From Bacillota bacterium (GTDB taxonomy: Bacteria; Bacillota; Clostridia; Oscillospirales; Acutalibacteraceae), in NCBI GenBank assembly GCA_029008595.1, contig JAQXJH010000019.1, positions 1-37,756 of the forward strand: a DNA stretch of 37,756 nt, given 5' to 3'. Position 1 is the first letter of the stretch; every line of letters begins with the position of its first letter. Below, in pieces: positions 7,921 to 33,328 of this stretch. A model generated the notes under the pieces. The model was not told the origin of the DNA. It did no database searches and saw only the letters and a list, made by a program, of their open reading frames with translations. A program made the position numbers and the translations under genes.

Positions 7921-8015
7921 TATTCGAAGAAGGAGCGCGGGATTTCGTTTGTACTCGCAGTTCCATTTGCAGGAACGCTTCGGGAGAAGCAGCGCGAAAA
8001 AATGGGCGTATTCGC

Positions 8016-8045
8016 TTGACAGATACGCTTGAAAAACAGTATAAT
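8016..8045 (+). promoter_or_regulatory. Sigma-A-type promoter of the glpP operon
   Basis: TTGACA (8016-8021), 18 nt, TATAAT (8040-8045). Confidence 0.88.
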
Positions 8046-8058
8046 AAGCGGGAGTAAT

Positions 8059-8107
8059 GGAGAGATGACGCGAGGGCGTGTGAAGCCCTGCTCATTTCTC
8101 CTTTTTT
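8059..8107 (+). terminator. Leader terminator/attenuator upstream of glpP
   Basis: ggagagatga...agggc-gtgtgaa-gccct...tcatttctcc followed by TTTTTT, only about 14 nt after the -10 box. Confidence 0.85.
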
Positions 8108-8157
8108 GCATGTCAGAGCGGCTTCCCGCGCTTTTGCGGGAGAAAGGGTGACGATTG

Positions 8158-12794: not shown

Positions 12795-14903
12795 ATGAAC
12801 ATTCCCCCGGAATACCTGATCGTATTGGGATTGATCGTTCTCGCGCTTGCCTATGTCATCTTCAACTTTTTCCGCATCAAGAAGATGAACGAAGGAACCG
12901 CAGAAATGGCCGAAATGGCGGGCATCATCCGCAGCGGCGCTTCCATGTTCCTGAAGACGGAGTTCAGAACGATCGTCATCGTTGTCATTGCCATTGCAGC
13001 GATCCTCTCACTGTTTGTTGAGGCCACCAGCGGCATCACCTTTATTTTAGGCGCCTGCATGAGCAGCATCGTCTGCATTCTCGGTATGCGCAGCGCCACT
13101 TACGCCAACGTCCGTACCGCAAACAAAGCCCGCGAGTCCCTTTCCATCGGTGAAACGGTCAAGGTCGCGCTTTGCGGCGGCAGCATCAGCGGCCTGAGCG
13201 TACAGGCCTTCGGCATGCTGGGGCTTGTGGCTGTGCTGTTTCTGTGGGGAAACCCCACCACAGCGAAAGACGGTCATGGTCTTCTGGTCGATCTTTCGTG
13301 CAACGCTTCCATCATGCGCATCTCCACTTATTCGCTCGGCTGCTCCATTGTGGCCATGTTCAACCGCGTTGCCGGCGGCAACTACACCAAAGCGGCGGAT
13401 ATCTCTTCCGATATTCTCGCCAAGCTCCGTCACGACCTGCCCGAGGATGACAGCCGCGTTCCCAACGTGATCGCAGACTTCATCGGCGACAACGTGAATG
13501 ATATTGCCGGCAACTGCTCCGACCTGCTGGAAAGCTTTGTTGCAACCATCTCCGCTTCCATGATGATCGCGGTATTCGTTCTGAGCGACAGTGCCATTTT
13601 CCGCAACGCGCTGGTCTTCCCGATCGCCCTTGCCGGTATCGGTCTGCTCGGCTGCCTGGTCGGCCTTGGTTTTGCAGCGATCCGTAAGATGGGCGACAAC
13701 CCCTCCCGCGAGCTGAATCTGGCCACCTGGATCTCCGCCGGCGTTACGCTGGGGCTGAGCCTTGCGCTTTCCTTCTACATGTTCGGCGGAAACGTTGAGC
13801 TGCCCGCCGCGTTCAAGCTCGGCTGGATCTCTCCGTGGATCTCCACCCTGCTCGGCATCATCAGCGGCGTGGCGATCGGCATGATCACCGAATACTATAC
13901 CAGCACCGACTTCAAGCCCACCCGCAAACTGGCTGAAATGGCCACCGAGGGAGAAGCCTTTGTCATCACCAAGGGCGACGCAATCGGCTCCCGTTCCGTT
14001 CTGCTGCCCATTCTGCTCATCGGAATCTGCCTCTTCGTTTCCGGCTGGCTGTGCGGCACCTACGGCATCGCCATTTCCGCTCTGGGCATGCTTTCCTTCG
14101 TCGGCGCCACCGTTTCCATCGACGCCTTCGGCCCCATCGCCGACAACGCTGGCGGTCTGGCAGAATCCTGCCACCTGGCGCCGGATGTCCGCGTCATCAC
14201 CGATAAGCTCGACGCCGTCGGCAACACCACCGCTGCCGTGGGCAAAGGCTTCGCCATCGGCTCCGCAGCGTTTGCCACCGTTTCGCTGATCGTTTCCTAT
14301 GTTCAGAACTTCCCCGCAGGGCAGCAGGTTCTTGACTTTGCTTCCTTCGTCGTTGTCGCCGGCGGTATCATCGGCGGCGCGTTGGTGGAATATTTCGCCG
14401 CCATGCTCACCGACAATACCATCGACGCCGCCAAGATCATGGCGGATGAGGGCGACAAGCTGCTCTCCATCCCCGGCGTTCTGGAAGGCAGCGTGAAACC
14501 GGATTACGACAAGATGATCCAGACGGCCACCAAGGAATCGCTCCGCAAGATGATCGTTCCGTCCGTGCTGGCGATCATGGTCCCCGTGGTCGGCGGTTTC
14601 CTGTTCGGCATCGAATTTGTCGGCGGCCTGCTGATCGGCGCTACCATTGTGGCTATTCCGCGCGCCATCTTCATGGGCAACTCCGGCGGTGCTTTTGACA
14701 ACGCCAAGAAGTACATTGAAAGCGGCATGCTGGAAGGCCACGGCAAAAAATCCCCCGCTCACAAAGCTGCCGTTACCGGCGACACCGTCGGCGATACCCG
14801 CAAGGACGTTGTGGGCGTCGCGCTGGATATCTTCATCAAGACCATGTCCACCGTGGCGAACACGCTGGTCTCCGTCTTCTCCCGCTTTACTCTGTTCAAA
14901 TAA
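12795..14903 (+). CDS. hppA: Membrane-bound ion-translocating pyrophosphatase (K+-dependent type suggested)
   Basis: GGSISGLSVQAFGMLGL, RVAGGNYTKAADISSD, DDSRVPNVIADFIGDNVNDIAGNCSDLLESF, DAFGPIADNAGGLAE, DAVGNTTAAVGKGFAIGSAAF, GNSGGAFDNAKKYIE, GDTVGDTRKD. Confidence 0.97.
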   Translation: MNIPPEYLIVLGLIVLALAYVIFNFFRIKKMNEGTAEMAEMAGIIRSGASMFLKTEFRTIVIVVIAIAAILSLFVEATSGITFILGACMSSIVCILGMRSATYANVRTANKARESLSIGETVKVALCGGSISGLSVQAFGMLGLVAVLFLWGNPTTAKDGHGLLVDLSCNASIMRISTYSLGCSIVAMFNRVAGGNYTKAADISSDILAKLRHDLPEDDSRVPNVIADFIGDNVNDIAGNCSDLLESFVATISASMMIAVFVLSDSAIFRNALVFPIALAGIGLLGCLVGLGFAAIRKMGDNPSRELNLATWISAGVTLGLSLALSFYMFGGNVELPAAFKLGWISPWISTLLGIISGVAIGMITEYYTSTDFKPTRKLAEMATEGEAFVITKGDAIGSRSVLLPILLIGICLFVSGWLCGTYGIAISALGMLSFVGATVSIDAFGPIADNAGGLAESCHLAPDVRVITDKLDAVGNTTAAVGKGFAIGSAAFATVSLIVSYVQNFPAGQQVLDFASFVVVAGGIIGGALVEYFAAMLTDNTIDAAKIMADEGDKLLSIPGVLEGSVKPDYDKMIQTATKESLRKMIVPSVLAIMVPVVGGFLFGIEFVGGLLIGATIVAIPRAIFMGNSGGAFDNAKKYIESGMLEGHGKKSPAHKAAVTGDTVGDTRKDVVGVALDIFIKTMSTVANTLVSVFSRFTLFK

Positions 14904-30838: not shown

Positions 30839-32182
30839 TTATTTACACGGTGCGGCGGCGTTCTTTATCTCCTGGTGATCGGCGGAATGATCGCTGATCG
30901 CTTCGGAGTAAATGGAAACTCCGCGCGCTTTGCCCTCCAGCGGCGGATGAGACTGATTTTTGAGCACCAGTTTGAGAAGGATCGGGCAGAGGATCGAGGA
31001 AAACACGATCAGAAAAATGGTGGAGACCAGCGGATCGATCCCGGCCAGAACGCCGTTTTCATAGTAGATCAGGCTCTGGCCGGTGGCGTACACAGCCAGA
31101 GCAACCTCACCGCGGGCGATCATGCCGCAGCCGATCGTCAGCGAATCGCGGCTGCTGTAATGAAATGCGCGGGCGATCCCGCCGCAGCCGAGGATCTTTC
31201 CGGCGATGCCGAGCAAGACGAAGACGGCGGCGAAGATCAGTCCGGAGGCCTGAAAATGGCTGAAATCCGCACTGATACCGATATAAGCAAAAAACATCGG
31301 AGTAAAGATCATGTAGCCGCTGACCACAACCTTGCGGTCCACAAATGAGGTATCATCCAGCCCGCTGAGCATCAGACCTGCCATGTAGGCTCCGGTGATG
31401 GCGGCAATATCGAAAAATTCTTCGGCACAGAACGCGTAAAAAAAGCACATGACGAGCGCGAAGATGCCGGTGCGGCGCTTGTGCGGGTATTTTTTGACCA
31501 TCCCCTTGAAAAACCAGCGGAGAAGCAGCCCAAGACCGATCGTGAACACAAAGAAGCCGAATGCCTTGAGCAGCGTCACGCCGATGCTGCCGCCGCCGTT
31601 CAGCCCGGTGATGATGCTGAGCGCGATGATGCCGAGAACATCGTCGATAATGGCCGCGCTGAGCACCGTGGTGCCGACATGGGTGTTCAGCTTGCCAAGC
31701 TCACGCAGCGTTTCCACCGTGATCCCGACGCTGGTCGCGGCCAGAATGCAGCCGACGAACAGCGCGTTCATGATCATGCCGTGGCTGGCTGCTCTGCCGG
31801 GCCAGCCCATAAACAGCAGAGCGCCGAAGGTGCCAAGCAGCACAGGAACCAGCACGCCTGCGCAGGCGATCGCGGTAGCTGCGGCTCCGCTCCGCTTCAA
31901 TTCCTTAAAATCGGTTTCCAGACCGCTGGAAAACAGAATGAAAACAACGCCGATCTGAGAAAAGCTTTGCAGAACATCCATTTCGGCGCTGGTGGGGTTG
32001 ACGATTCCCCCAAAGCTGCCCAGTCCGAGCCGGCCGACGATGGCCGGGCCGATCAGCAGACCGGCAAGGATCATGCCGACAACCTGCGGCAGGCCGAGAC
32101 TGCGTGTCAGCATACCGAGCAGCTTGGTCGACAGCAGGATCACGGCACAGTCAAACAGAATGTTCATGACGTTGAATTCCAT
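30839..32182 (-). CDS. CPA2-type cation:proton antiporter (Kef/NapA-like membrane domain)
   Basis: GLPQVVGMILAGLLIGP, SGLETDFKELKRSG, GCILAATSVGITVETLRELGKLNTHVGTTVLSAAIIDDVLGIIALSII, MIARGEVALAVYATG. ATG 32182 with aaaggag SD. Confidence 0.93.
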   Translation of the reverse strand: MEFNVMNILFDCAVILLSTKLLGMLTRSLGLPQVVGMILAGLLIGPAIVGRLGLGSFGGIVNPTSAEMDVLQSFSQIGVVFILFSSGLETDFKELKRSGAAATAIACAGVLVPVLLGTFGALLFMGWPGRAASHGMIMNALFVGCILAATSVGITVETLRELGKLNTHVGTTVLSAAIIDDVLGIIALSIITGLNGGGSIGVTLLKAFGFFVFTIGLGLLLRWFFKGMVKKYPHKRRTGIFALVMCFFYAFCAEEFFDIAAITGAYMAGLMLSGLDDTSFVDRKVVVSGYMIFTPMFFAYIGISADFSHFQASGLIFAAVFVLLGIAGKILGCGGIARAFHYSSRDSLTIGCGMIARGEVALAVYATGQSLIYYENGVLAGIDPLVSTIFLIVFSSILCPILLKLVLKNQSHPPLEGKARGVSIYSEAISDHSADHQEIKNAAAPCK

Positions 32183-32208
32183 AGTGTATTCTCCTTTGGT
32201 TCGGGCGC

Positions 32209-32258
32209 AAAAAACGACCTCTGCGCTTTTGTCAACCGGCTCAAAAGCACAGAGACCG
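32209..32258 (-). terminator. Leader terminator/attenuator hairpin of the CPA2 antiporter gene
   Basis: Minus strand CGGTCTCTGTGCTTTTG-agccggttga-CAAAAGCGCAGAGGTCG (17 pairs with GU wobbles) directly followed by TTTTTT, upstream of the start codon. Confidence 0.85.
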
Positions 32259-32308
32259 CCCTTGAAAATGGTGCGACCCATTTCAAACAGTTCAGTTTTC
32301 GGTTTTTT

Positions 32309-32337
32309 ATTATAGCCAGCCCAAACGGGAAAGTCAA
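32309..32337 (-). promoter_or_regulatory. Promoter of the CPA2 antiporter gene
   Basis: Minus strand TTGACT-17 nt-TATAAT. Confidence 0.85.
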
Positions 32338-32401
32338 TCTGCGATTTCGACAAAAAACACCGGAAACCGGCCGCGGTTTACAGGCGAACCCTGAAAACGC
32401 G

Positions 32402-33328
32402 CTATGCGCTGATGAGCCGGATGACCGCCGCCAGCACCGGCATGGTGAGGATGGAAAGCAGCGTGCAGAGCGTGACGCATTGCGAGGCAAGCGAAGCATC
32501 CAGCTTGTAGCGTGTGGAAAAGATCGTCGTAATGGCAGCGGTCGGGGCGCTGGCGACCAGCACCGAAGCGGCATACAGCTCATACGGCAGGTGAAGCGGG
32601 TAAAACAGCGCGGTCAGCGCGGCCGGGATCACCAGCAGGCGCAGCACGGCCACCGTATACAGGCGGGCCTGCGAAAAGCACCGCAGCAGGTTCGATTTTG
32701 CCACATAGCTGCCCACAATGATCATGGCGATCGGTGTGTTCAGAGCAGCGAGCATGGTCACGGTGCCGCCCAGCACCGACGGCAGGCGGATCTCGAACCA
32801 GAAAAGCGCGAATGCAATGACAAACCCAATGGTACCTGGGTTGAGCAGCGCCTTTCTGAGGGAGGCCTCCTTTTTTCCGCCCATCATCACGATGCCGGCG
32901 GTCCAGACAAGAACATTAAAAGCGATGACGGCCGCCGCTGCGTAAACCAGCGCGGAATCCCCCAGCGTGGCCTGCACCAGCGGAAGCCCCATGTAGCCGC
33001 AGTTGGAATACGTCATGGCGAAGCGAAGCACCCGCCGGTTGCCCGGCTGTTCTCTGCGGAAAAAGAGGAACGAAAGTGCCGTACCGATCACGATCGATGC
33101 CGTAATGATCCCGGCGGCGATCCCCATTTCCCGCACAAGGGTCAGATCCTTGTCGCGCTGCAGGGAATCGATGATGACGCAGGGCGAAACAATATTCATC
33201 AGAACGTAGGACATCTGGGATGCTCCGTCCTCTGTGATTTTGCCGCGGTGCGTCAGCAGCGCGCCGACGCCCATCATCAGGAACAGAGAAAGAACCTGTC
33301 CCGCAACTGTAAGAATATCCTGAAGCAT
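32402..33328 (-). CDS. AEC (auxin efflux carrier) family transporter
   Basis: 10-TM pattern; MTYSNCGYMGLPLVQATLGDSALVYAAA, LNTPIAMIIVGSYVAKSNL, ASAPTAAITTIFSTRYKLDASLASQCVTLCTLLSILTMPV. Confidence 0.93.
   Translation of the reverse strand: MLQDILTVAGQVLSLFLMMGVGALLTHRGKITEDGASQMSYVLMNIVSPCVIIDSLQRDKDLTLVREMGIAAGIITASIVIGTALSFLFFRREQPGNRRVLRFAMTYSNCGYMGLPLVQATLGDSALVYAAAAVIAFNVLVWTAGIVMMGGKKEASLRKALLNPGTIGFVIAFALFWFEIRLPSVLGGTVTMLAALNTPIAMIIVGSYVAKSNLLRCFSQARLYTVAVLRLLVIPAALTALFYPLHLPYELYAASVLVASAPTAAITTIFSTRYKLDASLASQCVTLCTLLSILTMPVLAAVIRLISA

Follow-up and report, generated by a model that had tools for sequence, protein, structure and literature searches.

Riboswitches of the Na+-I (DUF1646 motif) and Li+/Na+-II (nhaA-I and nhaA-II motifs) classes precede cation/proton antiporter genes, with the Na+-I and Na+-II riboswitches using intrinsic terminators (PMC9337991, PMC9646797). 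Premature termination before a transporter gene is likewise found in the leader of the E. coli spermidine exporter mdtJI, where it is Rho-dependent and involves an upstream ORF (PMC7815308). The leader described here, part of a window of 37,756 nt (the whole stretch of DNA that was analyzed), shares with the Na+-I and Li+/Na+-II riboswitches its position before an antiporter gene, but has no aptamer match and is not conserved in orthologs. As in mdtJI, a putative leader termination signal precedes a transporter gene; here, however, the signal is of the intrinsic type, and the leader showed no ORF carrying a Shine-Dalgarno (SD) sequence. In its architecture (a strong promoter, a short leader and an intrinsic terminator before SD and ATG), the locus resembles the Gram-positive leader attenuators of pyrG, L10 (RF00557) and GlpP-/LicT-type genes, yet it lacks a recognized protein-binding site and an Rfam match. 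It further differs from the pyrG leader in having no reiterative G start, its likely start being within or beside an A-run that precedes CC.

Anatomy of the antiporter leader

The locus comprises the following features, listed from the antiporter gene to its upstream neighbor:

30839–32182, minus strand: gene for a CPA2 (NapA-like) Na+/H+ antiporter, 447 aa (PF00999, TIGR00932, 4bwz)
32191–32197, minus strand: Shine-Dalgarno sequence AAAGGAG, free of leader hairpins
32209–32214, minus strand: U6 tract of the predicted terminator, read from the sequence, abutting hairpin 2 without a gap
32215–32258, minus strand: hairpin 2, predicted intrinsic-terminator stem (17 bp, 10-nt loop, −21.6 kcal/mol)
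32241–32265, minus strand: alternative, early-forming hairpin UCAAGGGCG/UGCUUUUGA (−8.0 kcal/mol, G-U-rich, mutually exclusive with hairpin 2)
32262–32286, minus strand: hairpin 1 (TTGAAATGG-gtcgca-CCATTTTCAA; 7 bp predicted, −6.7 kcal/mol)
32309–32337, minus strand: sigma70/sigmaA-type promoter TTGACT-17-TATAAT, matching 11/12 consensus positions
32359–32379, minus strand: weak terminator-like element before the promoter, from the terminator scan
32402–33328, minus strand: AEC-family transporter gene upstream of the antiporter, on the same strand and ending at 32402

The protein matches PF00999 (E 6.5e-59) and, under the curated cut-off, the CPA2 subfamily TIGR00932 (E 6e-43); its best solved relative is the Na+/H+ antiporter of PDB entry 4bwz (E 9.8e-36). 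A previous reading of the letters alone (hereafter the sequence-only reading) had named a CPA2 cation:proton antiporter, which the PF00999 domain and the similarity to NapA bear out, while its start codon was one base off (ATG at 32182, not 32183). In nearly all compared orthologs the protein begins with this M[ED]F or close to it, which means that the ORF list, by extending the frame further upstream, places the start wrongly. A leader peptide was considered and rejected: the antiporter frame is open through the leader, yet the ATG further upstream (32282) lacks an SD, and the orthologs start at the MEFN/MDFN methionine. The weak element at 32359–32379 is likely the end of the AEC-family transporter transcript.

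In the promoter, the –35 element TTGACT (32337–32332) is separated by a 17-nt spacer from the –10 element TATAAT (32314–32309), as the sequence-only reading had it; a promoter scan returned 2 sites with at least 9/12 matches per 1 kb, compared to 0.2 in shuffles. Transcription is expected to start near 32302 on the minus strand, giving a leader of ~120 nt, again the length given previously. About 44 nt, containing a single weak hairpin, lie ahead of the predicted terminator (~45 nt in that reading). The gap between the U-run and the ATG is 26 nt, and no second promoter was seen within it.

Hairpin 2 folds into a continuous 17-bp stem (32258–32242 paired with 32231–32215) that ends directly in TTTTTT, precisely as drawn before; a simple terminator scan, which allows loops of at most 8 nt, hence misses its 10-nt loop. 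Hairpin 1 is present at 32286–32262, but the 9-bp form drawn originally contains one bulge, and 7 bp are predicted. When the 219-nt intergenic stretch was shuffled preserving dinucleotides, a hairpin of −20 kcal/mol or lower abutting T5 or more arose in 8 of 3000 shuffles, and the fold of the whole leader has a z score of −2.3. No second copy of the leader was found in its own genome; an origin of the hairpin from a repeat or MITE was accordingly rejected.

The sequence-only reading had also paired GGGCG with the CGCCC past the U-run. The fold instead predicts GGGUCGCA of hairpin 1 as the partner of CGCCC (32279–32272 with 32209–32203), a pairing that can form only once the polymerase is beyond the terminator and thus cannot act as an antiterminator. 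The sole candidate antiterminator that could form before the second terminator arm exists is the alternative hairpin at 32241–32265; no structure of a stability comparable to the terminator was found among the leader folds, this one being the best, and without the terminator the best leader fold reaches −11.4 compared to −38.8 kcal/mol. The terminator surpasses the alternative hairpin so clearly in stability that the leader, as drawn, is unlikely to work as a self-contained RNA switch. Protein-dependent or fixed attenuators do not require a competing antiterminator, and the leader is easier to reconcile with antitermination by a protein or with partial termination at a fixed level; there is no indication of a ligand-binding aptamer.

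Related RNAs and ortholog leaders

At gathering level, Rfam identified a tRNA only in the whole window; the ortholog loci likewise yielded a tRNA and nothing else. With the leader region alone and E values up to 10, only two eukaryotic families appeared, far below their cut-offs and attributable to chance. None of the Na+-I (DUF1646), Li+ and Na+-II (nhaA-I, nhaA-II), c-di-AMP or other Rfam riboswitch models matched the leader, in agreement with the earlier remark that no known aptamer was recognizable. As a positive control, the same search does detect L10_leader in this genome. By DNA comparison to 150 genomes of the family, six short hits were obtained, none with the leader structure; the ones inspected, in L010 and L015, fall within coding genes, as expected of chance hits. 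When 300 genomes of the family were searched with R1, a covariance model built on the leader, no convincing related RNA came up: the two hits had E values of 0.001–0.002 per genome, which is about chance among 300 genomes, with the L103 hit being a hairpin of different sequence and the L104 hit lying in another context.

We compared the regions upstream of 19 orthologous antiporter genes (62–79% identity; not counting the copy in the window itself, one duplicate and one ortholog truncated at a contig end), all from genera other than that of the window's genome. A promoter with at least 10/12 matches was located within 220 nt of the ATG in 13 of the 19. Leaders vary in length and content: seven orthologs have leaders of 24–43 nt without a terminator, others leaders of 65–160 nt with unrelated hairpins, and those of the four genus-mates L019, L054, L059 and L060 differ from each other. 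Neither the sequence nor the structure of the window's leader RNA occurs in any of the 19. Conservation of the leader, whose absence the sequence-only reading had set as grounds for refutation, is thus lacking at the genus level and above, and a conserved new riboswitch class is not seen across these orthologous leaders; the hairpin arrangement seems specific to this lineage.

Some orthologs possess terminator-like elements of their own. Between its promoter and ATG, L019 (65% identity) carries a different hairpin of −22.3 kcal/mol with AATTTTTTG after it, and L018 has a weak leader hairpin. In L047 and L048, what precedes the antiporter gene is a terminator after a gene end judged glyA-like by eye; in L020, it is a tRNA with its terminator. 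No promoter is obvious between these terminators and the antiporter gene in either arrangement. These three antiporter genes sit 35–40 nt behind the tRNA or glyA-like gene terminator and, judging from this layout, may be expressed by read-through. Terminators close before the orthologs' ATG were in excess (Fisher p 0.02–0.07), which is only a hint, as synteny is shared, the criteria were loose and the gene caller was approximate.

Leader terminators elsewhere in the genome

Across 576 kb scanned in the genome, six sites, the antiporter's among them, combine a promoter (at least 10/12), a hairpin of −12 kcal/mol or lower with a U-run, an SD and an ORF of at least 100 codons. The remaining five precede a G3P_antiterm gene (PF04309, GlpP family; at window position 8102), the ribosomal L10 gene with its Rfam L10 leader RF00557 (L063:11881–12047), the CTP synthase gene pyrG, a gene for a polyamine-type ABC ATPase (potA-like, by eye), and a ThuA-domain gene, whose leader hairpin is weak. 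L10, pyrG and glpP-type genes are of types regulated by leader termination. That three of the five other sites belong to gene types attenuated in their leaders is the main positive argument for a real attenuator before the antiporter gene.

Two of these loci deserve separate mention. Positions 8000–8155 of the window (plus strand) hold a promoter with 12/12 matches, a hairpin of 17 bp (−26.1 kcal/mol) and a T-run, all ahead of the PF04309 gene for a G3P-responsive antiterminator; together they likely constitute an autoregulated GlpP-type leader. At L091 (~13290–13466), a promoter-like site, an 18-bp imperfect hairpin and a T-run stand before the potA-like ATPase gene (assigned by eye); this leader had no Rfam match.

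Competing explanations

We lean towards reading the feature as a leader attenuator, with a predicted intrinsic terminator before the Na+/H+ antiporter gene. What is directly observed is how the sequence is built, how seldom shuffles produce the like, and that known attenuator genes of the genome share this architecture; it is through anatomy, shuffles and company in the genome scan that the attenuator proposed by the sequence-only reading finds support. The promoter kept in most orthologs and the separate terminator-like hairpin of L019 are consistent with it, whereas the lack of conservation, the seven short leaders and the want of a comparable antiterminator argue against. We infer that termination itself occurs and that its efficiency is modulated rather than fixed. 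RNA polymerase would start at ~32302 from the strong sigmaA promoter, transcribe ~90 nt, and then meet hairpin 2 and U6, where part of the transcripts would be released ahead of the antiporter gene; an RNA-binding protein, elongation factors or nucleotide levels might tune how often this happens. If termination is indeed regulated, the antiporter gene would join the leader-attenuated genes in a little-studied group of Clostridia.

A constitutive partial terminator, which would reduce the output of a strong promoter by an unchanging proportion or stabilize the 5′ end without any regulation, is a possible explanation, though one we rate well below an even chance. The leader's lack of aptamer, antiterminator and conservation would suit it, and the read-through arrangements in L047, L048 and L020 suggest that read-through expression is tolerated; on the other side, the architecture is rare in the genome, and known regulated leaders account for half of the sites resembling it. 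The promoter-to-terminator unit also has the anatomy of a small RNA gene, of ~90 nt, with the antiporter expressed by read-through, but this is improbable given that such a gene is conserved nowhere among the genomes searched, that the 26 nt before the ATG offer no promoter, and that orthologs have promoters directly serving the antiporter. A riboswitch that senses ions or a metabolite through a very small aptamer is quite improbable. The proposal is a reasonable one in that the downstream gene does encode a Na+/H+ antiporter, a type of gene controlled by Na+ and Li+ riboswitches, of which Na+-I can use an intrinsic terminator (PMC9337991, PMC9646797). However, the Na+-I aptamer overlaps the terminator stem and no such aptamer is recognizable here; the short, weakly structured stretch before the terminator and the failure of Rfam, ortholog and covariance-model searches to return a relative also speak against the ion-responsive riboswitch that the sequence-only reading had put forward.

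Similarly doubtful is a lineage-restricted version, in which a tiny RNA sensor or protein-directed antitermination would control the NapA-type antiporter by ions or pH, relatives in the order having evolved different leader terminators at this place (L019, possibly L018, and the glyA/tRNA read-through of L047, L048 and L020). An ion riboswitch here would be important if true; the comparative evidence points elsewhere. Least probable of all, hairpin 2 might terminate the AEC-family gene, which ends upstream on the same strand, with the promoter match being fortuitous. Against this, the 11/12 promoter separates the AEC-family gene from the hairpin and has counterparts in 13 of the 19 orthologs, and a weaker terminator-like site (32379–32359) already follows the AEC gene.

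A minor feature of the leader attenuator favored here concerns its 5′ end: directly after the –10 box, around the likely start, a run of six A residues (32303–32308, minus strand) is followed by CC, a context in which slippage at initiation could occur.
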